A stretch of DNA of 34,990 bases, from IMG/VR virus record IMGVR_UViG_3300021368_001946, positions 1 to 34,990 of that record. The stretch is one strand, 5' to 3'. The stretch comes from a virus. The first letter of the stretch is position 1. Each line of letters begins with the position of its first letter. The notes beneath the pieces are model-generated. The model ran no database searches and was not told where the DNA came from. It was given only the letters and a program-made list of their open reading frames with translations. The translations under genes and the position numbers were made by a program. Below, piece after piece: positions 2,617 to 34,990 of the stretch.

Positions 2617-2885
2617 CAGCTATTGACGTCGGGACCATCGTTGCTCTCGTGGCCATGCTTTGGAAAATGAGCCAAGACAAGGCGGCGAGCGCTGAGGAGA
2701 TGGGGCGGCTGAAACAGCAGGTGAGGTCTCTTGAAACTAGAGCCTCTCAGAGTGACGCTAAGTTTGAGAGTGTTGATCGGAAGCTTCAACAGCTTATAGA
2801 AGCAGTGGCTAGGATCGAGGCGACCCTCGAAGCACAGCGCGACTTTGCGCCTCGAGCGCCAGCGATCTACAGACGCGACAGCTGA
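2607..2885 (+). CDS. Small membrane protein with coiled coil, lysis-associated (92 aa)
   Basis: GTG 2607 is preferred because GGAGG (2597-2601) sits five bases upstream; ATG 2595 would overlap that site and adds four residues. One hydrophobic segment (VGTIVALVAMLWKM) is followed by a coiled coil of about 50 residues (EEMGRLKQQVRSLETRA onward) and a basic tail. This layout resembles small haemolysin XhlA-like phage membrane proteins. The gene ends the plus-strand late region and its last 19 bases overlap the end of the opposing recT-like gene, so transcripts converge here. Function is inferred only from layout. Confidence 0.65.
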   Translation: MDVTAIDVGTIVALVAMLWKMSQDKAASAEEMGRLKQQVRSLETRASQSDAKFESVDRKLQQLIEAVARIEATLEAQRDFAPRAPAIYRRDS

Positions 2886-4012
2886 GCCAAGAGGCGATCA
2901 TCTCCACCGGTCGAGATGACCTCGCTCATCAGCTGCCTAGCTTGCTCGAGCTTCTCACCCTCATAGTGAGCTGAGATGCTGAGCGACTCCCAGAAGTATG
3001 GGTTAGAGAGGTTCTTGCCAACGGCGCGTGAGTCAGCATCGAGAGGTAGGGCGGGGAACTCGTCACGGATCTTCTTGACGATAGGCTTAGACGTACCCAT
3101 ATCACGCCACCACTCAGGGCTGAGTCGTGATGAGCGGATAGTGGAGCTGATCAGCCACGAGTAAAAGAAGTCACGCCTCTGCTCGGCGCTGATCCCCTCT
3201 AGATCCACCAGGAGTCTATTGGCCACATCGATAGCCTCACTCTTAGAGATGCTGTGATGGTCGAGCGCAGTAGCAAGCTCTTTCATGCTCTTGAAGTCTC
3301 TCACCGGCGTTGGTCGCTTGGGCTCATCGCTGACCTGCTGCGGAGGTGCTGAGGGCTCAGGAGCTGGCTGAGGTTGCACAGGTGCAGAGGGCTGAGGAGG
3401 TCGTGATGGCTGTGGCGCGCGTGATGGCTGAGGAGCTCGCTGAGCTTGTGGCGCTCGTGATGGCTTCTTGATCTCCTCACCGAGAGCCTGAGCGCTGATC
3501 TCGGCGCGCTCATCGTCGCTCATGTTGGTGTTATCTGCGATCTCATCAGCTGAGTAGATACCAGACACAGCATCAGGGAAGACAGCGCGTAGACCCATCG
3601 TCAGACAGCGAGCACGAAGCATCTGCATCGGCATCGTCTTCCAGTTGCGGTTATTCGTGAGGCCTTGGTTCTGAGCCATCTCAAAGGTGTAGGTGAAGCG
3701 GTGCATAACATCCATCGGCTCATCTCGGCGCGCCATCTCCATGACACAGTGCTCGTGATCCCATGAGACTGTACGGATGAAGGCCACGAGACCTGACGAG
3801 CGACAGATACCAGCCATCGCGTCAGCGTTGAGTGTCGGCTTGCCTCGGAGGCTATAGCCTTGTGTCCAGGTGCGCCCAAGGTCACCACCGAAGTGATCAC
3901 CGAAAGCCGCGAAGACTTGGATCAGGCTGAGAGCGTCACGCTGATTCCCGTTAGTCAGCAGCATAGCCATCTCTTGGAGCTCTTGAATATTTGTTGGTAC
4001 GAAGATGCTCAT
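2867..4012 (-). CDS. recT: RecT-family single-strand annealing protein (381 aa)
   Basis: Anneals complementary single strands for recombination and repair of phage DNA. ATG 4012 has AAGGA eight bases upstream; the longer frame to 4066 lacks such support. Residues 1-165 form the RecT core, with KPTLNADAMAGICRSSG at 58-74 and the family signature MLRARCLTMGLRAVFPDAV and GIYSADEI at about 130-158. A proline/serine/glutamine linker spans about 184-225, followed by a helical C-terminal region of about 155 residues that I do not recognise. That tail makes it longer than common RecT proteins (about 270-320 aa). No partner exonuclease of the RecE type was found nearby. It is the last gene of the minus-strand unit and converges on the late genes. 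Confidence 0.85.
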   Translation of the reverse strand: MSIFVPTNIQELQEMAMLLTNGNQRDALSLIQVFAAFGDHFGGDLGRTWTQGYSLRGKPTLNADAMAGICRSSGLVAFIRTVSWDHEHCVMEMARRDEPMDVMHRFTYTFEMAQNQGLTNNRNWKTMPMQMLRARCLTMGLRAVFPDAVSGIYSADEIADNTNMSDDERAEISAQALGEEIKKPSRAPQAQRAPQPSRAPQPSRPPQPSAPVQPQPAPEPSAPPQQVSDEPKRPTPVRDFKSMKELATALDHHSISKSEAIDVANRLLVDLEGISAEQRRDFFYSWLISSTIRSSRLSPEWWRDMGTSKPIVKKIRDEFPALPLDADSRAVGKNLSNPYFWESLSISAHYEGEKLEQARQLMSEVISTGGDDRLLAQLSRL

Positions 4013-4070
4013 AGTGTATATCCTTAATATCTGTTTGGTTAAGAGGCAGATGAGACGGTAGGTCATAGAT

Positions 4071-4183: not shown

Positions 4184-4392
4184 CGTCGGAACTTCCGAGC
4201 GACGTAGGCAGAGAGACGAATAGCGCCACGAGCGACGCTGAAGCGGTTGATAGGCTCAGCGACTCGCTCAGCGATGTCAACGCCTCGGAGCGCGGCGAGC
4301 TCCACGTCTGTGATTGATGGGGTCTGAGGCTCGACGGTGAGCTTGACAGGCTCAAGGCCATAGCAAGTAGGCTGTGGGTCGGTGATGCACAT
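4180..4392 (-). CDS. Unknown protein downstream of the regulator (70 aa)
   Basis: Not recognised. The start overlaps the stop of the regulator gene (TAATG) and its own stop overlaps the next small gene, so it sits in the same minus-strand operon. The protein is soluble: a Pro/Thr-rich N-terminal third with one cysteine pair (MCITDPQPTC), then a helical, arginine-rich C-terminus ending VARKFRR. A competing 62-residue frame at 4173-4361 on the same strand is serine-rich and lacks coupling, so it was set aside. The operon position suggests an accessory to regulation or recombination. Confidence 0.6.
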   Translation of the reverse strand: MCITDPQPTCYGLEPVKLTVEPQTPSITDVELAALRGVDIAERVAEPINRFSVARGAIRLSAYVARKFRR

Positions 4393-4826
4393 TAGTCGGT
4401 CTCCTTGATGCGAACGACTCGACCGTCATAGAGCTCGATGGTCTTGTCTAGGTCAGCGGTGAGGTAAAGCTCTCTGAGCTGTTCTTCGACCTCAGGCTCT
4501 TTCTTATAGCGCTTGAGTAGCTTCTTGGCTGTCACCTCTAGATCTTGACCCCATAGTGAGTCAGTGATGATGAAGACAGCCGAGCGCGGAAGGTCGTTGT
4601 AGTTGTCAGATAGGTCAGGTCTGAAGTCTGTTGTCTCAAAGGGTGCAGGCAGATCGAGCGCAGCACATAGCTCATTAGCAGTGTCAGCGATGCGACCTGC
4701 CAGCTCAATAGATGGATTCGTTGAGCCATTAATGACCTGGGAGAGATAGCTGTAATTGATGCCGAGCGCAGCAGACAGCTGACGGTTCTTGATTGCTCTG
4801 AGAAGAGCTTCTTTCTGTTCTGTCAT
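4392..4826 (-). CDS. Cro/CI-type helix-turn-helix regulator (144 aa)
   Basis: Probable DNA-binding repressor acting on the divergent control region. ATG 4826 has GAGG six bases upstream; the frame extends to 4856 without a ribosome site. Residues 1-45 form a compact helix-turn-helix: LSAALGINYSYLSQVINGS matches the recognition region of the Cro/CI and YdaS-like families. The remaining 100 residues are acidic and helical and lack the Ala-Gly cleavage site and Ser/Lys pair expected of LexA/CI-type self-cleaving repressors. It is therefore either an uncleaved repressor or a Cro-like protein. First gene of the minus-strand unit, facing the replication genes. Confidence 0.75.
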   Translation of the reverse strand: MTEQKEALLRAIKNRQLSAALGINYSYLSQVINGSTNPSIELAGRIADTANELCAALDLPAPFETTDFRPDLSDNYNDLPRSAVFIITDSLWGQDLEVTAKKLLKRYKKEPEVEEQLRELYLTADLDKTIELYDGRVVRIKETD

Positions 4827-4851
4827 GTTATCCTCACACTGTGTTAGGCTG

Positions 4852-4891
4852 AACATGTTTTATGTTTGACATATCCTAAAACATGTGTCAA
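4852..4891. promoter_or_regulatory. Divergent operator/promoter region
   Basis: Between the regulator and the initiator gene, AACATGTTTTA (4852-4862) is mirrored by TAAAACATGT (4877-4886), and each half contains the palindrome ACATGT. TTGACA at 4866-4871 and its reverse complement TGTCAA at 4886-4891 give -35-like boxes on both strands within the same site. No convincing -10 box at standard spacing was found on either strand. The arrangement fits a repressor binding its own divergent promoters. Confidence 0.55.
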
Positions 4892-4931: not shown

Positions 4932-5636
4932 ATGAAACAGCATGAGGCTTTATGCCTAGCGATCAACTGCCCTGTAGGAGATGCGGCCAAGTTTGTGCTC
5001 GTGGCTCTCGTGGCTAAGCTCGACTGGGAGACATGGGCTAAGCCTATGAGCGTCTCCTATATAGAGAAGGCTCTGAGGACTAAGAGCAGGTCAACCATCT
5101 CAAGAGGCTTGGCCGAGCTCCAGACCAAGGGCATCATCGAGCGCCATGATATTGAGGGTCGAGCAGACGGCGTGAGGCTGATCAAGCTCAACACTTCAGC
5201 GCTCACTGCCCTATGTCAGACTGACATACCCCCTATGTCAAAGAGACATACCCCCTCTGTCACTGTGACACACCCCCCTATGTCAGAGAGACATACCCCC
5301 TCTGTCAGTGTGACATACCCCCTATGTCAACCTGACATACCCCCTATGTCAGAGAGACATACCCCCTATGTCACTGTGACAGACAATATAATCAGTAATA
5401 ATCAGATATCTAATCTGAATGATAATCAGTCTTCTAATCAGTCTGAGCAGACCAAGAGCTTAAACAGCGCGCGAGAGACTTGGGGAAGTAGAGAAGCAAT
5501 GAAAGATAACTCTTCTTATTGGGGAACCTCATCAGGTCGAGGACTCACACCGGCTACTCAGCCTAGAAGACAGAAGACACACCAAGAGAAGATGGCAGAG
5601 GCCAGAGAGCTGATGAAGAGGACTTACGCGAAATGA
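4932..5636 (+). CDS. Replication initiator protein containing the origin (234 aa)
   Basis: Likely the lambda O counterpart: it binds the iterons in its own gene and brings in the loader encoded next. ATG 4932 has AGGAGG five bases upstream, the clearest ribosome site here. Residues 1-90 look like a winged helix (SVSYIEKALRTKSRSTISRG, then LAELQTKGIIERHD). Residues about 94-150 are the low-complexity translation of the iterons, with repeats such as IPPMSKRHTPS and HPPMSERHTPS. An Asn/Ser-rich stretch (from DNIISNNQIS) corresponds to the AT-rich DNA. The C-terminus is basic and helical. The gene ends at an ATGA junction with the loader gene. Initiator function is inferred from layout; no named family was recognised. 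Confidence 0.8.
   Translation: MKQHEALCLAINCPVGDAAKFVLVALVAKLDWETWAKPMSVSYIEKALRTKSRSTISRGLAELQTKGIIERHDIEGRADGVRLIKLNTSALTALCQTDIPPMSKRHTPSVTVTHPPMSERHTPSVSVTYPLCQPDIPPMSERHTPYVTVTDNIISNNQISNLNDNQSSNQSEQTKSLNSARETWGSREAMKDNSSYWGTSSGRGLTPATQPRRQKTHQEKMAEARELMKRTYAK
5212..5383 (+). repeat. Origin of replication: eight 22-bp palindromic iterons
   Basis: Eight units start at 5212, 5234, 5256, 5279, 5301, 5323, 5345 and 5367. Each is a 17-bp near-palindrome of the form TATGTCA-nnn-TGACATA, and successive units are joined by a run of five or six C. The pitch is 22 bp, about two helical turns, with a single 23-bp step between units 3 and 4. The last unit lacks the C-tract and leads into AT-rich DNA. 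Repeats of this kind inside an initiator gene are the hallmark of lambdoid origins. Confidence 0.85.
5384..5441 (+). other. AT-rich candidate unwinding element with TAATCAG repeats
   Basis: Immediately after the iterons lies a strongly AT-rich stretch with four exact copies of TAATCAG (5389, 5399, 5423, 5435) and one TAATCTG (5411). An AT-rich block beside the iterons is where lambda-type origins melt. The short repeats may be strand-specific initiator or loader contacts, which is inference. Confidence 0.7.
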
Positions 5637-8735: not shown

Positions 8736-10102
8736 TGACGATCAACCTCAACGAGCTCCAGCACGGGATCATCTCACGCATAGCGCAAAATGAGCGGATC
8801 ATCGCGGCTCGTTGTGGTTGGGGATCTGGCAAGACCTCGGCGCTCGTCTTCGCTCTCCTCTTCGTGTCGAGGGTGAGGCCTAACACATCATCATTGCTCG
8901 TCACTGACACCAACCCACGCTATAACTCTGTGCTTATGCCTGAGATGGAGAAGTGGCTCTCACCGCTTGGTTGGACTTATAACCACACCCTCAGGCAGTG
9001 GAGCGCGCCGAATGGCTCAACAGTGTGGTGTCGCTCCTATTATCGACCAGGGACGAGAGACGCGACTCATAACCCTCTTGAGGGTCTCAACATCACGAGC
9101 GGCGTCTGTCTTATAGATGAGTGTCAGACGCTGAGCGCAGAGGTAGCCCACAAAGCGATGGGTCGATTGAGAGCAGGGCCGAGCCCCATTATGATCCTCG
9201 TGGGTCTGCCAGTGAGCGGCGCTTGGTGGTGTCACCTAGCTGAGGAGGCGAGTTGCTCACCGCTCCTCTTCACCTCATACGTCAACTCAGCCAACCTCAG
9301 CGCCGAGTGGTTTGAGGCTACTAAGCTGCTACCTGAGGCAGAGCGTGAGGCTATGGTGATGAACAAGCCACGGCCACCATCAGGGCTCATCTACTCCGAG
9401 TTCGACGAGTCACGCCACGTCATTAGCGGCTGGGAGTATAAGCCGACCATGAGCGGTCGAATCGCCATCGACTGGGGATTCAGGAAGCCATCAGTCTTGA
9501 TCATCGTACATGATGAGGAGCTCGGCGCTGATGTCATCTGCCACGAGATCAACCCCCAAGAGGTCACCACCTCTCAGCTTGCTACGCTTATCTTAGCTGT
9601 AGCTTGGCCGCGCTCGTTGAGGAGCTCCGCACCAGGTGATCGCATATGGCTTGATAATGGAGTGGCCGATAAAGCGGGTAGGGCTCGCAACGACCAGACA
9701 GGGCGCTCAGCATTCCGAGCGATGCGCGCCGCTCCACCAGATGGGCTCGGTATGCCGTTGAGGTCTAACACTGACCCAATCAGGACCGACATTCTCAACG
9801 GGGTGCAGCGTCTTAAGAGGGCCTTTGCTCGTGGTCAGTATCTCATCACCAAAGAAGTCTGGGACGGTGGCGAGCGCGCCACAGGTAACAGCATAAGAAA
9901 AGCTCTGATGTCCTACGGGTGGGACAACAAAGAACAACCTAAAAAGGATGGGCGTGAGGATCCGCTTGACGCTCTCCGCTATGACTGCATAACTTGGCGA
10001 TGGGCTGACTCAATCGTAGATCAACGCCAATATCAACCACGCTCCTCAGCCTCTAAAGATCGTAGAGTCAGAGTAGGTGGAGCCAAGAGGAGAAGCTTTT
10101 GA
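8735..10102 (+). CDS. terL: Terminase large subunit (455 aa)
   Basis: ATP-driven DNA packaging motor and nuclease. ATG 8735 forms a TGATG junction with the previous gene and has GGAG ten bases upstream; GTG 8696 and ATG 8711 are in-frame alternatives. Walker A is GWGSGKT at about 28-34, Walker B CLIDECQ with D128 and E129. The RNase H-like nuclease half shows its metal acidic residues in IAIDWG (D246), IWLDNG (D307) and EDPLDALRY (D409, D412). Length and order are normal for a siphovirus terminase. The next gene starts inside its stop codon. Confidence 0.95.
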   Translation: MTINLNELQHGIISRIAQNERIIAARCGWGSGKTSALVFALLFVSRVRPNTSSLLVTDTNPRYNSVLMPEMEKWLSPLGWTYNHTLRQWSAPNGSTVWCRSYYRPGTRDATHNPLEGLNITSGVCLIDECQTLSAEVAHKAMGRLRAGPSPIMILVGLPVSGAWWCHLAEEASCSPLLFTSYVNSANLSAEWFEATKLLPEAEREAMVMNKPRPPSGLIYSEFDESRHVISGWEYKPTMSGRIAIDWGFRKPSVLIIVHDEELGADVICHEINPQEVTTSQLATLILAVAWPRSLRSSAPGDRIWLDNGVADKAGRARNDQTGRSAFRAMRAAPPDGLGMPLRSNTDPIRTDILNGVQRLKRAFARGQYLITKEVWDGGERATGNSIRKALMSYGWDNKEQPKKDGREDPLDALRYDCITWRWADSIVDQRQYQPRSSASKDRRVRVGGAKRRSF

Positions 10103-10785
10103 GAATCTACAATGACGATGTAGGCGAGGTGAAATATGTGTCCTCGATGGGTAACGACTCAACGCCTGCTCATTCAGCGCGGGTGAGCTTCTATGATGAG
10201 AGCACATCCTCACCGCTGCAGATGACTGATCGAGACGTTAAGCTCATTCAATACCTAGCGAGGCATAACCACACCTCACCCTTTGAACATTGCGCAGCGA
10301 CTCTTAAGATCTCGTGTCCTCTCTTCGTTCGCTCTCAGATCATGCGTCATCGTACCTTCTCATTTAATGAGGTGAGCAGACGTTACACCTCAGATCGAAT
10401 CGCGTTCTGGATGCCTGAGGAGCTCCGCGAGCAACACCAGACCTCTCTCCAATGCTCGACCGATGAAGCGGTCCAAGAGTCTGATCATTGGCTGCAGTGT
10501 TGGGATCAACACCACGTTAACTGCGCCGCCTTCTATGAGTTGATGCTAGCCTCAGGTGTCGCTCGTGAGCAGGCGCGCGCTGTGCTGCCTCAGTCGCTCT
10601 ATACTCACTTTTGGATGTCAGGCAACCTCAACAACTGGGCTAAGTTTCTGAGGCTTCGACTTGACCCCCATAGTCAGCCTGAGACTCAGGCAGTAGCCAA
10701 GGCCGCGCGGTTTATCCTGATGAAGCACTTTCCTGTGTCGCTCGGCGCGCTCCTCGGTGATCTAGCCTACGATGAGTCACACTGA
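10099..10785 (+). CDS. thyX: Flavin-dependent thymidylate synthase (228 aa)
   Basis: Makes dTMP from dUMP using FAD, NADPH and methylenetetrahydrofolate, supplying thymidine for phage DNA. The family signature RHRxxSxNExSxRY is complete as RHRTFSFNEVSRRY at residues 83-96. ARVSFYD near 28 and RAVLPQSLYTHFWMSGNLN in the C-terminal third also fit. The start is an unusual TTG at 10099, supported by AGAGGAG upstream and a TTGA overlap with the terminase stop; the first in-frame ATG would remove the first strand of the fold. ThyX is common in phages but its place between terminase and portal is a moron-like position. Confidence 0.95.
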   Translation: MRIYNDDVGEVKYVSSMGNDSTPAHSARVSFYDESTSSPLQMTDRDVKLIQYLARHNHTSPFEHCAATLKISCPLFVRSQIMRHRTFSFNEVSRRYTSDRIAFWMPEELREQHQTSLQCSTDEAVQESDHWLQCWDQHHVNCAAFYELMLASGVAREQARAVLPQSLYTHFWMSGNLNNWAKFLRLRLDPHSQPETQAVAKAARFILMKHFPVSLGALLGDLAYDESH

Positions 10786-10940: not shown

Positions 10941-10968
10941 ACCATGGAGATCAGAGAACGACGACTAG
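10855..10968 (+). CDS. Single-helix membrane micro-protein (37 aa)
   Basis: ATG 10855 has a strong site, GAGGA five bases upstream. It encodes a hydrophobic helix (MSIVTLIVISILLVNVVASI onward, about 25 residues), followed by a charged tail ending SENDD. It overlaps the cysteine-cluster frame upstream and the first 25 bases of the cyclase gene downstream, each in a different frame. The ribosome site and clear membrane span make it credible. Its position suggests it works with the membrane-anchored cyclase or its neighbour. Confidence 0.5.
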   Translation: MSIVTLIVISILLVNVVASIWIVASLRGEPWRSENDD

Positions 10969-11723
10969 CCATAGTTCTTCTCGATCTCATCGGCTCAACT
11001 GCGTTCGTCTCCAAGGTGGGACCCATGAAGGCGGCGCGGTGGTTGCAGTACCATGATCGCCTCACTCGCTCTCTCATGCATCGTTTCAACGGTCGAGAGA
11101 TAGATAGGTCTGACGGCTTCCTCCTCAGCTTTGAATCTCCGATCAATGCGGTCAACTTCGCGCTGATCTACCAACGAGACATCCCACCTAAGATCAAGAT
11201 CAATACTCGTATCGGCCTACACGTCGGCATCGTCGCAGAGGTGACGCAGGATGAGCTTGACGTCTTGGTTGGCGCTAAGCCGGTCGAGCTTGAAGGCGTA
11301 GCTAAGAACATCGCCGCGCGCACTATGAGCTTATGTCAAGCTGGTCAAGTCCTCCTCACCGAAGAGGCGTTCAAACACATCAAGAGCAGGACGAACGGAT
11401 TCACACCGAAGGGAACACGTTATGTATGTGTGGGCCTCTATCGCTTCAAAGGTGTCCGAGAACCTCAGACGATATACGCAGTGGGTGTCAGGATTGAGTC
11501 TCTGCAGCCACCACCAGGTAGTGAGAAGGTTAAGCGACTCGGCGGCCCTAAGAAGGTCAAGAGCCGAGCGCGAGATAGAAGGATTAAAGAGTGGTTCTGG
11601 TGGATCATTATGAGGTGGGCTCTCATCAACCTCATTTACATTATCTGCGTCATTTGGCCTTGGCTCATGTATCATTTCCCTCTCGTCAACCGTTTACTAC
11701 AGTGGGTGATCAATGGAGACTGA
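10944..11723 (+). CDS. Class III nucleotide cyclase with C-terminal membrane anchor (259 aa)
   Basis: Predicted to make a cyclic nucleotide from an NTP at the membrane. Residues 8-183 are a class III cyclase domain: D14 in LLDLIGST and D57 in SDGFLLSF are the two metal aspartates, and N122 and R126 in VAKNIAART are the transition-state pair. QVLLTEEAF and RFKGVREPQTIYAV close the domain as in adenylate/guanylate cyclases with the TGDGFLATF-type core. The loop before D57 is one residue short and the base-selecting lysine is absent, with E115 at the usual Asp position, so the substrate cannot be predicted. Residues about 216-245 form one or two membrane helices (WFWWIIMRWALINLIYIICV). ATG 10944 has GAGGGG upstream. 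Cyclases are rare in phages. Confidence 0.85.
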   Translation: MEIRERRLAIVLLDLIGSTAFVSKVGPMKAARWLQYHDRLTRSLMHRFNGREIDRSDGFLLSFESPINAVNFALIYQRDIPPKIKINTRIGLHVGIVAEVTQDELDVLVGAKPVELEGVAKNIAARTMSLCQAGQVLLTEEAFKHIKSRTNGFTPKGTRYVCVGLYRFKGVREPQTIYAVGVRIESLQPPPGSEKVKRLGGPKKVKSRARDRRIKEWFWWIIMRWALINLIYIICVIWPWLMYHFPLVNRLLQWVINGD

Positions 11724-12189
11724 AAAGACAAGCAGAGAGATCACGAGTGAGATTAAGGCTAAGCGGGGGTGGTGGTTCTCGGTGTTCTTTATGATCCTCG
11801 TGGTGGGTCTCATCCTCTTCTTAACCTACGTTGAGATAGTGGATAAAAATCGCGATGTCCTCGTGGGGATACTCGGAATGATCACAGGCTCTATCAGCTC
11901 CATGATGGCTATCGCCTCAGGTCGTGACCCCTCAGAGGTCGAGGAGTTGAAGGACAAGCTCAGCGCCGCCAACGCTGACAGAGAGGCGCTCATCGCTCGG
12001 CTCAGAGATAGTCAGATTCAGATGCAGCTGCTAAGAGAGCAGATCAATGAGCTACAGGTCGCGGTGATAGATAAGCTCAGCATCTTTGCAGGTGAGAAGC
12101 CGATCAAGACCAAGGATGAGTCAGACGTTATCCTTCACCCAACAGTGGCTGAATGGTTGCCTGATACGAGACTAGACAAGAAGAGATAA
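11713..12189 (+). CDS. Two-helix membrane protein with coiled coil (158 aa)
   Basis: Starts inside the end of the cyclase gene (11-base overlap), so the two are translationally linked. A charged N-terminus leads to helices at about 20-41 (WWFSVFFMILVVGLILFLTY) and 48-69 (DVLVGILGMITGSISSMMAI), then a coiled coil at about 74-122 and a short acidic/basic tail. The two helices with a small-residue second helix resemble some phage holins, while pairing with a cyclase resembles signalling or effector modules. No cyclic-nucleotide-binding domain is visible. It ends before a 72-base gap carrying a regulatory hairpin. Confidence 0.65.
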   Translation: METEKTSREITSEIKAKRGWWFSVFFMILVVGLILFLTYVEIVDKNRDVLVGILGMITGSISSMMAIASGRDPSEVEELKDKLSAANADREALIARLRDSQIQMQLLREQINELQVAVIDKLSIFAGEKPIKTKDESDVILHPTVAEWLPDTRLDKKR

Positions 12190-31400: not shown

Positions 31401-34400
31401 ATGAGTATCAACGCTAAACCATGGGAGAGCGCCGGGGGCGCGGCTACGGTCCCAGACGCGAGCGAGACTACTAAAGGTAAGATTCGCATAGCGACAAGCG
31501 CAGAGGCCACGACCGGGACTGACGACTTGACAGCGATGACCCCATTGACAGTCAAAGAGCGGATCGACGCGGCGCTCGTTGGTGGCGTCGAGTATAAAGG
31601 CTCATACACAGGTCAAAGCCTGGTCACTGCTCAAAAGGGTGACATGTATATCTCTAGCGGGAATCAGACGCTAGGTGGTATCTCACTCACCAACGGTGAT
31701 CACATCATCTTTAATCAGAATGCTTCTGATCCTGTTACCGGCTCAATGTTCGATAAGATCGACAACACCGATCAAGTCACGAGCGTTAACGGCCAGACTG
31801 GTCCTGTATCGCTCGGCATCGGTGACCTCAATAACGTCACTATCTCAGGAGGTGGCGCAGATGGTGACTTTGTGCGCTATGATTCAGGTGATAGTCGTTG
31901 GGAAAACGTCACAGCTGCCAGTATCAACCTCAGTGACTTTAATAATGACCTATCTCTAAGTGGCAATCAGATCACCGATGTTGCAAGTCAGACGGGCTCA
32001 ACGTTCACCGCTACAGCCAATGTGATCTATGTGGTGGGGTACACGACAGGGACGCAGACGATCACCTTCCCAGATGCCTCAGCATCTACAGACGGTGACC
32101 TGATCGGCCTAACCTCTACAGGCACAACTGACTACAGCCTTGACCTCGTGAGCAGTGATGGCTCGACTAATGACCTCCTGAACATGAGCAACCAGACCAA
32201 GGGTGGCACTAATGGAGCTCTGTCGATCACTGTAAAGCAAGAGCTTATCCTCTTCGCCTGTGATGGGACTAGGTGGCGTCAACTCAGTCGGGAGCTCGCA
32301 GACGTGGCCAAGACTGGCGCTTATTCAGACTTGAGCGGAACGCCAACGCTCGGGACAGCAGCAGCAGCAGACACAGGTGACTTTCTCGCATCTACAGCAG
32401 CGCTTAATGATCTCTCTGATGTAACCATCTCCTCTGTGTCTAATGGTCAAGTGATCAGTTACAACTCAACCTCAGGCGAGTGGGAGAACTCAACCCCTGC
32501 AAGCGGTGGAGCTACTGATCTTAATGGCCTCTCTGATGTCACGATCACGAGCGCCGCTAGTGGTAACCTGTTACAGCATAATGGGTCAGGTCAGTTTGTG
32601 AATGTCGCTAAGTCAACTATCAACGTCGGCGACTTCAATGATGACTCAACCTATCAACCTCTTGATGCACAGCTGACAGACGTAGCGGGGCTCACTCCTG
32701 CTGATGGCGCGTTCATCGTCGGTGATGGGGCTAACTTCGTGGCAGAGAGCGGAGCTACAGCGCGCACGTCACTTGGCTTAACCATCGGCACTGATGTCCA
32801 AGCTCACGACGCTCAGCTTGATGATGTAGCGGGTCTCACTCCTGCTGATGGTGCTGTGATCATTGGTGATGGTGCTAACTTCGTCACTGAGTCAGGGGCG
32901 ACCGCTAGAGCTTCACTAGGTCTCACCATCGGCACTGATGTCCAAGCATATGATGCACAGCTCGCCGACGTTGCAGGGCTCACTCCTGCTGATGGTGCGT
33001 TCATCGTTGGTGATGGGGTCAACTTCGTCACTGAGAGCTTAGCTACTGCGCGCACATCACTTGGCCTCGGTACTGCTGCCACCTCTGACACTGGTGACTT
33101 CTTAGCCTCAACCGCAGCGCTCAATGATCTCTCAGATGTGACCATCACCTCAGTGTCTAATGGCCAGGTCATCTCTTACAACTCCACATCAGGCGAGTGG
33201 GAGAACTCGACCCCTGCAAGCGGTGGAGCTACTGACCTTGATGGCCTGAGTGATGTGACCATTACCTCAGCGAGCTCAGGGCAGATCCTGAGAAATAACG
33301 GCTCTGGTCAGTTCGTCAATGTAGCTCTCTCCATCGTGGACGATACCAGCCCCCAGCTCGGCGGCGCGCTCGACGTGAACGGGAACGCGATCACCTCAGC
33401 CTCTAATGGTAACGTCACGATCAACCCCGATGGCACAGGTGATATCAGCGTTGGCGCTGACATCATCCCAGACGCAGACGCCACCCACACCATCGGTGAT
33501 GAGGCTAACCGCTTCATCAGCCTCTACTCTGATGTTAATGGCGCCATCAGGTTCAAAGCTAAGAATGATCAAGGCGCGGCGATCAGCAAGGGTCAAGTGG
33601 TCTACATCAAGGGCGTAAGCGGTACAGTTCCAACTGTAGGCCTGGCGCGTGCTAACAGCTCATCAACGATGCCTGCTTTTGGTCTGGCGCTCGATAACGC
33701 CAACGATCAAGCAGAGGTGCAAATCATCACCTTCGGCAACCTCACTGACTACAACACTACGACCTACAGCCTCAGCGCTAATGATACAGTGTTTGTTAGT
33801 GCTGCCACTGCTGGAGCTCTCACCAACTCAGCGCCGACAGGTGAGGCCAACCTCATCCAAAACATCGGCCGAGTAGTGAGGGCAGACGCGAGCGCAGGCA
33901 TTATCAAGGTCGGTGGTGCTGGCAGGAGTAATGCTACGCCTAACCTCGATCAAGATAAGATCTTCTTAGGCAACGCATCAAACCAAGCGGTGTCCACCGC
34001 GCTGAGCTCGATCAACCTCACCTCATTCAATGATGATCTCGGCTCAACGTATCAGCCACTTGATGCACAACTGACAGACGTGGCGGGGCTCACCCCTGCT
34101 GATGGTGCTGTGATCATTGGTGATGGAACTAACTTCATCACTGAATCAGGCGCGACCGCTAGGGCTTCGCTCGGCTTGACCATTGGCACTGATGTCCAAG
34201 CTTATGATGCACAGCTCGCCGACGTTGCAGGGCTCACCCCTGCTGATGGTGCGTTCATCGTTGGTGATGGGGTCAACTTCGTCACTGAATCAGGCGCGAC
34301 CGCTAGGGCTTCGCTCGGCTTGACCATCGGCACTGATGTCCAAGCTTATGATGCACAGCTCGCCGACGTTGCAGGGCTCACCCCTGCTGATGGCGCGTTC

Positions 34401-34990
34401 ATCGTCGGTGATGGGGCCAACTTCGTCACTGAGTCAGGAGCGACCGCGCGCACGTCGCTTGGCGCTATTGCTGAGCTCAGCGAAGATAGTTCACCACAGC
34501 TCGGCGGGGACCTAGATCTTAACGGCCGAGACATCGTAACCACGAGCAATGCTGACCTTGATCTCGCTCCGAATGGCACTGGTGTAGTCGTTATACGCGG
34601 TAACACTAACCCAGGGGCGATTAAGCTTAACTGCGAGTCTAACTCACATGGGGTGCAGATCGAGAGCCCACCACACTCAGCAACAGCAGAATATAATCTG
34701 ATCCTGCCAACTGGCGTTGGATCACCTGGTCAGGTGTTAAAGACTGATGGTGGTGATGGTGGAACACCCGAGACAGTGCAACTAGCTTGGGTCGACCAGT
34801 CAGGCGGCGGCGGTGGTTCAGCGCCCGCTGTGACCTCTGCCTCTCCGAGTTCTGACTATACGATCACGAACACGAGCACAGCGCACCAGGTGTATTTACT
34901 CACACCCTCAGCTGATATCGATGTGACACTGCCAAGCGCGGCGACAGCTGGCTCAGGTACACGCTACGACGTCAAGAACCTCGCTTCAGC
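31401..34990 (+). CDS. Tail fibre protein (N-terminal 1196 residues; ends at 268 across the join)
   Basis: Host-recognition fibre. ATG 31401 has AAGGGG upstream. No stop occurs up to the window end, and the frame continues at the left end to TGA 266-268, for about 1240 residues. The N-terminus has the common fibre lead TTKGKIRIATSAEATTG and VTSVNGQTGPVSLGIGDLNN. The middle is built of repeated modules: two sets of three 48-residue units (DAQLxDVAGLTPADGA) and a duplicated LNDLSDVTI block. Between them is a conserved trimeric-fibre section (IPDADATHTIGDEANRFISL). The tip, past LPTGVGSPGQVLKTDG, contains a Gly5 run. High Asp/Ser/Thr/Gly and low Cys are usual for trimeric fibres. Confidence 0.88.
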   Translation, partial: MSINAKPWESAGGAATVPDASETTKGKIRIATSAEATTGTDDLTAMTPLTVKERIDAALVGGVEYKGSYTGQSLVTAQKGDMYISSGNQTLGGISLTNGDHIIFNQNASDPVTGSMFDKIDNTDQVTSVNGQTGPVSLGIGDLNNVTISGGGADGDFVRYDSGDSRWENVTAASINLSDFNNDLSLSGNQITDVASQTGSTFTATANVIYVVGYTTGTQTITFPDASASTDGDLIGLTSTGTTDYSLDLVSSDGSTNDLLNMSNQTKGGTNGALSITVKQELILFACDGTRWRQLSRELADVAKTGAYSDLSGTPTLGTAAAADTGDFLASTAALNDLSDVTISSVSNGQVISYNSTSGEWENSTPASGGATDLNGLSDVTITSAASGNLLQHNGSGQFVNVAKSTINVGDFNDDSTYQPLDAQLTDVAGLTPADGAFIVGDGANFVAESGATARTSLGLTIGTDVQAHDAQLDDVAGLTPADGAVIIGDGANFVTESGATARASLGLTIGTDVQAYDAQLADVAGLTPADGAFIVGDGVNFVTESLATARTSLGLGTAATSDTGDFLASTAALNDLSDVTITSVSNGQVISYNSTSGEWENSTPASGGATDLDGLSDVTITSASSGQILRNNGSGQFVNVALSIVDDTSPQLGGALDVNGNAITSASNGNVTINPDGTGDISVGADIIPDADATHTIGDEANRFISLYSDVNGAIRFKAKNDQGAAISKGQVVYIKGVSGTVPTVGLARANSSSTMPAFGLALDNANDQAEVQIITFGNLTDYNTTTYSLSANDTVFVSAATAGALTNSAPTGEANLIQNIGRVVRADASAGIIKVGGAGRSNATPNLDQDKIFLGNASNQAVSTALSSINLTSFNDDLGSTYQPLDAQLTDVAGLTPADGAVIIGDGTNFITESGATARASLGLTIGTDVQAYDAQLADVAGLTPADGAFIVGDGVNFVTESGATARASLGLTIGTDVQAYDAQLADVAGLTPADGAFIVGDGANFVTESGATARTSLGAIAELSEDSSPQLGGDLDLNGRDIVTTSNADLDLAPNGTGVVVIRGNTNPGAIKLNCESNSHGVQIESPPHSATAEYNLILPTGVGSPGQVLKTDGGDGGTPETVQLAWVDQSGGGGGSAPAVTSASPSSDYTITNTSTAHQVYLLTPSADIDVTLPSAATAGSGTRYDVKNLAS
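32361..32609 (+). repeat. Fibre repeat module type 2, copy 1
   Basis: About 249 bases that match 33078-33326 at an offset of 717 bases, coding DTGDFLASTAALNDLSDVTI through NGSGQFVNV. Most differences are at third codon positions, so this is an older duplication than the 144-base units. The shared GEWENSTPASGGATDL part is identical in protein. Confidence 0.8.
32664..33068 (+). repeat. Fibre 144-base tandem repeat, set 1 (three units)
   Basis: Units start at 32664, 32808 and 32952, each coding about 48 residues beginning DAQLxDVAGLTPADGAxI and ending LGLTIGTDVQA. The third is cut at LGL and passes into the type 2 module. Units differ mainly at synonymous sites. Confidence 0.88.
33078..33326 (+). 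repeat. Fibre repeat module type 2, copy 2
   Basis: Second copy of the block at 32361-32609. It directly follows set 1, so one larger segment (type 2 module plus repeats) appears to have been copied and then rearranged. Confidence 0.8.
34062..34463 (+). repeat. Fibre 144-base tandem repeat, set 2 (three units)
   Basis: Units start at 34062, 34206 and 34350. Units 2 and 3 here share long runs of exact DNA identity, closer to each other than to most units of set 1, pointing to recent copying. The third unit breaks off at SLG and leads into the fibre tip. Confidence 0.88.
34865..34990. repeat. Right copy of 126-bp terminal direct repeat
   Basis: Identical to bases 10-135. It lies within the fibre gene and keeps its frame, so removing one copy and joining the ends restores an intact gene. 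See the left copy for the mismatch pattern that bounds it. Confidence 0.9.

Follow-up and report, generated by a model that had tools for sequence, protein, structure and literature searches.

A probable lambda-plan replication origin, with iterons inside the initiator gene, in a phage family carrying a DnaC-like helicase loader

Lambdoid origins and the locus in the window

In bacteriophage lambda, dimers of the O protein bind inverted-repeat iterons and open an adjoining 40-bp AT tract, after which the helicase is loaded (PMC5043065). The O-like genes of P22 (gene 18), phage L (gene 18) and phi80 (gene 15) each hold their own distinct iterons (PMC8022706), and Stx lambdoid phages have six, of which the AT-distal extras add O residues and are reported to be needed for plasmid replication though weakly bound (PMC7466680). 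Here we analyse a locus of the virus record IMGVR_UViG_3300021368_001946, a virus of bacteria with metagenomes as its only source, taken at its full length of 34,990 bases (the window), in which the gene of a 234-aa initiator contains eight dyad iterons and an AT-rich tract and is followed by the gene of a DnaC-like AAA+ helicase loader. We consider it very probable that this locus is the phage's vegetative replication origin on the lambda plan, where the initiator would bind the dyads, the AT tract would melt and the loader would bring DnaB to it.

As in lambda, the origin lies within the initiator gene, between the parts for the DNA-binding and C-terminal regions; each iteron has arms of 6 bp and a spacer of 5 bp (lambda iteron 1 is TCCCTC-AAAAC-GAGGGA); the AT-rich tract (~40 bp in lambda) is immediately downstream; and the loader gene comes next with a four-base overlap (5636/5633 in the window; lambda O ends at 39585 and P starts at 39582). 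In contrast to the window, with eight iterons at 22 bp, lambda has four at steps of 20, 24 and 23 bp. The half-site of the window also differs from lambda's, while the relatives L010 and L020 carry lambda's TCCCTC-N5-GAGGGA. The partner is a DnaC-like AAA+ protein rather than lambda P, and the C-terminal tail of the initiator is short. An earlier note on this DNA had described the iterons as more numerous than lambda's and different in sequence; both statements are correct, but the number is not extraordinary, because the origins of Stx phages have six (PMC7466680).

The other described systems share parts of this arrangement. The sites of P22 gene 18, TTTACC-N5-GGTAAA, are also N6-N5-N6, but the P22 initiator is paired with a DnaB-type helicase (gp12). 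Step lengths in this group are different too (~21 bp in phi80), and the P22, L and phi80 origins showed no 12-bp AATCWG tract. The half-sites of Stx phages are those of lambda, with no three-frame 22-bp units described. Iteron plasmids (P1, RK2, R6K, pSC101) likewise have repeated initiator sites beside a melting AT-rich region; in the window, however, the units are dyads inside the initiator coding sequence. We rejected an iteron plasmid origin of the Rep_3 or RepA_N type on account of this position and because a Pfam scan found no plasmid Rep family.

The kind of origin is thus already known, since the O-like genes of lambda, P22 and L, distantly related to one another, carry different iterons (PMC8022706). 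What is new is this family, with its DnaC-type loader as partner, its core of 22-bp steps through three frames and its close relatives of exchanged specificity. The lambda plan is extended to a group with a DnaC-type loader and without relatives among the public phage records searched: protein searches of INPHARED with the initiator and the loader gave no match, and literature searches returned no description of this initiator–loader family. Among genome contigs there were only two remote loader-like matches (27% identity, SAR116 contigs), and therefore we assign no host.

The iteron array and the AT-rich tract

The eight units of the window, with the consensus TATGTC-N5-GACATA, span 5212–5383. 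As the earlier note had reported, there are eight of them, with C-runs on one strand and a near-constant 22-bp pitch: the start-to-start distances are 22, 22, 23, 22, 22, 22 and 22 bp, and the self-match of the array is 0.72 at lag 22 and 0.60 at the double lag of 44, against ~0.17–0.43 at nearly all other lags. The 7-bp arms TATGTCA/TGACATA that it proposed were too long, being exact in only two of the eight units; 6-bp arms are exact in five of eight, the others having one or two mismatches. Since the linker between units (CCCCC) is also 5 bp, half-sites recur every 11 bp in alternating orientation, with a single extra C as the exception, a spacing compatible with the earlier note's idea that an initiator dimer might sit on a single helical face. 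Counting those that span the CCCCC linkers, the array contains nine perfect palindromes with 6-bp arms and an N5 spacer; the maximum was two in first-order shuffles of this region and four when the peptide was recoded synonymously 2000 times. No further TATGTC-N5-GACATA site with up to two mismatches was present outside the array in the 35-kb record, and a tandem-repeat scan revealed no second comparable short-unit dyad array adjoining an AT tract.

IMG/VR searches yielded about a dozen and a half loader-bearing contigs; the iterons were readable in 13, which together with the window make 12 distinct iteron arrays. The initiator–loader order is identical in all relatives, and the layout of winged helix, intragenic dyad iterons, AT tract and loader gene recurs wherever the related contigs cover the region. 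This one kind of operon carries at least five types of half-site, every one of them N6-N5-N6: type A, TATGTC (window, L009, L018, L014); type B, (T/C)CCCTC, the lambda half-site (L010, L020); type C, TGCG(A/T)C (L011); type D, TACG(A/T)C (L012, L013, L015); and type E, (C/T)CCATC (L017, L019). The three AT-proximal iterons of types A, B, D and E are placed at +22 and +22 in codon phases 0, 1 and 2, so that the 22-bp steps make each core iteron read in a different phase; in type C the 22-bp core spacing holds by hand count. The outer iterons of types B–E are mostly 18 bp apart, in a single phase, and variable in number among close relatives (runs of six in L017 and three in L019). This pattern hints at a fixed functional core with outer copies that can be multiplied, in parallel with the additional distal iterons known from Stx phages (PMC7466680).

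In the type C array (L011, 1944–2090) two AT-proximal sites read by hand, TACGTC-aaata-GGCGGG and CCCGCC-aatat-GGCGGG, differ from the distal TGCG(A/T)C sites; for this reason the array may be a hybrid that records an exchange breakpoint inside the iterons.

We considered whether the repeats might act at the level of the protein, as a proline-rich linker in which the palindromes are incidental. The array is translated throughout, and its spacer codons vary partly synonymously (GAGAGA versus GAACGA, both Glu-Arg), as such an explanation would have it. However, the 22-bp unit shifts frame, so the peptide changes from one unit to the next but the DNA half-site is retained, and synonymous recoding does not reproduce the palindromes. 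Base 7 of the type A right arm is T in all 17 units in phases 0 and 2 and is A or C, never T, in all nine units in phase 1, where T would read as a TGA stop, although sequences that share ancestry are not independent trials. Such avoidance of stops, together with a frame-shifted AATCAG copy in the AT tract, points to selection on the DNA, and we regard a protein-level role as scarcely credible. For types C and D, synonymous recoding at one mismatch did not show selection for palindromes (P 0.20 and 0.06, respectively), and because of this the case for them rests on position, phase and exchange. The C-runs look like a coding compromise, as ACCCCCT gives proline-containing codons in all three frames. 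The series as a whole shows an origin written through coding sequence: the half-sites are fixed, the frame cycles and single arm-base changes avoid stops.

The AT content of 5389–5442 is 74%, and the lowest-GC 55-mer of the record lies at 5383–5441, tied with the initiator promoter region. The four exact TAATCAG repeats of the earlier note are present in this AT-rich DNA, along with one TAATCTG. The AATCWG motif of the tract is retained in all relatives and all iteron types. AATCWR is commoner in the tract than under synonymous recoding (P 0.0036), and its count exceeds that of recoded sequences in most types, with the exception of L011. Asn preceding Gln or Leu in the tract is encoded by AAT in 29 of 29 cases, compared with an AAT:AAC ratio of 24:14 for the other Asn of the tract and 92:175 in the genes of the record, and in type A one AATC(A/T)G copy sits in a shifted frame (ATA ATC AGT). 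By these counts the conservation of AATCWG goes beyond coding need. A scan of viral contigs for the motif of the tract found 17, ten of this family and seven unrelated; the latter lacked an iteron array, and most of their matches were coding tracts rich in glutamine or asparagine. We thus rejected the motif as a general phage element. One-mismatch DnaA boxes numbered 26 against 27.5 expected, with none inside the origin, and so there is no evidence for a role of DnaA.

The initiator and the coupled exchange of its winged helix and iterons

The iteron units encode the middle third of the initiator. In the AlphaFold model pLDDT is mostly 84–92 at residues 1–95 and below 50 at 99–212; the predicted fold is a winged helix (~1–97), disorder over 99–212, which covers the iteron-coded part, and a C-terminal helix. 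Among PDB structures it matches winged helices (best Z 11.4, 89 residues, rmsd 2.3), with neighbours of the TFIIE/RPC and MarR types (MarR/TFE-like folds). Matches among viral structure models include proteins annotated as the lambda O N-terminal domain, in alignments whose rmsd is large because of the disordered tail. At the sequence level the initiator weakly matches the PHROG replication-initiation families 428, 270 and 678 (O-like; 1e-6 to 2e-5). The last of these is matched by six of nine family initiators, and by lambda O itself at 1.7e-35; PDB sequence searches with the initiator or lambda O gave nothing useful. What connects the locus with lambda is its architecture, the geometry of the half-sites and these weak PHROG matches; clear homology in sequence is not part of the case.

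We compared close relatives over the operon. L018 and L017 are 99% identical in the loader and 51% in the winged helix, and their half-sites differ; the corresponding values are 99% and 56% for L014 and L012, and 95% and 52% for the window and L010. The window and L018 show the reverse pattern, with a 92% identical winged helix, a shared half-site and a loader at 77%. The DNA agrees with this: between L018 and L017 identity is 96% in the regulator gene, 93% in the loader and 81% downstream, and falls to 52% in the winged helix and 39% in the iterons. The same drop at winged helix and iterons is seen for L014/L012 and window/L010, while window and L018 have 92% in the winged helix and 69% in the loader. 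In approximately unbiased tests the loader tree rejects a type A clade (p 0.0009), which the winged-helix tree unites with support of 100/97, and the winged-helix tree rejects the loader pairings (p 1e-6, 0.016 and 4e-7). As read from these alignments and trees, there are three joint exchanges in which winged helix and iterons travel as one unit and the C-terminal tail stays with the loader. Such movement is as expected if the one reads the other. Because relatives with near-identical loaders carry at least five half-sites, these natural pairs make origin recognition open to dissection.

Phased dyad arrays are generally known to serve partition systems also, and breakpoints of recombination flank the array, so we considered a centromere-like partition site or a recombination hot spot. 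No ParA/ParB-like gene was found among the open reading frames scanned, the partner gene is a helicase loader, and recognition specificity explains the pattern of exchange; either role appears very unlikely.

Only sequences that share a half-site reach an identity of ≥0.75 in the predicted recognition helix; between types it is ≤0.62. Types C and D, whose half-sites have CG in common, both have Arg-Ser in this helix. The covariation of helix and half-site is suggestive only. A more detailed scheme, to which we give tentative credence at best, is that of interchangeable cassettes of origin specificity: the recognition helix would set the 6-bp half-site, and winged helix and iterons would be swapped as a block between near-identical operons, while two elements would stay constant, namely the three-iteron, three-phase 22-bp core and a sequence-specific 12-bp unwinding repeat, AATCWG, to which the initiator or the loader would bind.

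The earlier note's proposal of a lambda-style origin gains support from the recurrent layout in relatives and from the joint exchange. From the sequence architecture, the conservation at the DNA level, the exchanges and the loader family we infer the following course, its steps being analogous to those of lambda O. Initiator dimers would bind the mid-gene dyads with their N-terminal winged helices, each subunit taking one 6-bp half-site. The three AT-proximal iterons, if not more, would form a phased core, with half-sites every 11 bp, that bends the DNA and melts the adjoining AT tract. The C-terminal tail would then recruit the product of the adjacent gene, the DnaC-like loader, which would put the host DnaB helicase onto the opened strand. 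Several observations weigh against an origin of the lambda kind. An hhalign comparison of a nine-sequence winged-helix profile with lambda O was not significant (probability 1.5%, P 0.034); the initiator has no long O-type C-terminal domain, and there is no lambda P-like partner, the neighbour being DnaC-like. The recognition-helix covariation comes from five types and nine sequences only. GC skew, which the earlier note had put forward as a check, makes no sharp switch at the locus and is uninformative.

Neighbouring genes and other features of the record

A rightward operon begins with the initiator gene, and the gene of a helix-turn-helix (HTH) regulator diverges from it (Table 1); no sigma-70 consensus promoter was found ahead of this operon. 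Upstream of the initiator is the dyad TTGACA-N14-TGTCAA, found once and at the same length of 26 bp in the family loci covering the region, whatever the iteron type. It is constant though the adjoining regulator and the iterons diverge between loci. It is probably an operator; we rejected it as an extra iteron, as it is constant while iterons vary. This separate operator-like element bears on the possibility that the intragenic repeats are themselves an operator or autoregulatory array, acting as a transcription roadblock or by titrating the initiator, with the origin elsewhere. The winged helix of the initiator does resemble many repressors of MarR/TFE-like fold. An array for regulation, however, would be at odds with eight units in mid-gene that abut an AT tract with conserved 12-bp repeats, with the helicase-loader gene that comes next in each family locus read, and with the lack of any other comparable dyad array beside an AT tract in the tandem-repeat scan. 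We judge this explanation unlikely and retain a replication origin at the array.

Table 1. Positions of the origin locus and its neighbours in the window (iterons as 17-bp dyads)
Feature	Position	Strand	Remarks
HTH regulator gene, divergent	4392..4856	-	CI-like position; PF01381 3e-7
TTGACA-N14-TGTCAA	4866..4891	+	perfect dyad upstream of initiator; operator-like
Initiator gene, 234 aa	4932..5636	+	open reading frame; predicted winged helix residues ~1-97, iteron-encoded disordered linker, C-terminal helix 217-233
Iteron 1	5212..5228	+	TATGTC-agact-GACATA; codon phase 0
Iteron 2	5234..5250	+	TATGTC-aaaga-GACATA; phase 1
Iteron 3	5256..5272	+	TCTGTC-actgt-GACACA; phase 2
Iteron 4	5279..5295	+	TATGTC-agaga-GACATA; phase 1, after the 23-bp step
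Iteron 5	5301..5317	+	TCTGTC-agtgt-GACATA; phase 2
Iteron 6	5323..5339	+	TATGTC-aacct-GACATA; phase 0; opens the three-iteron core beside the AT tract; spacing and phase shared by relatives
Iteron 7	5345..5361	+	TATGTC-agaga-GACATA; phase 1
Iteron 8	5367..5383	+	TATGTC-actgt-GACAGA; phase 2; abuts the AT tract
AT-rich tract	5384..5441	+	presumed unwinding element; TAATCAG at 5389, 5399, 5423, 5435; TAATCTG at 5411
Initiator C-terminal tail	5443..5636	+	presumed loader-docking part; accompanies the loader in exchanges
DnaC-like AAA+ helicase loader gene, 303 aa	5633..6544	+	phrog_50 1.3e-26; PDB DnaC 6qel 8.5e-7; DnaI 4m4w 1e-4

Elsewhere in the record are genes for a RecT-like annealing protein (2867–4066, minus strand) and a ThyX thymidylate synthase (10099–10785, plus strand). 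A homologue of class III nucleotidyl cyclases with C-terminal hydrophobic helices is found at 10944–12189 (PF00211, 22.8 bits; PDB 1ybt, 2e-10), and its gene overlaps a second one for a small membrane protein that matches SLATT weakly. The two may form a signalling pair of the Pycsar kind; a PADLOC search produced no match. Near the right end there are two arrays of ~144-bp repeats (32663–33068 and 34061–34447), of 2.7–2.8 copies each and with similar consensus units, which perhaps lie within a tail-fibre-like gene.
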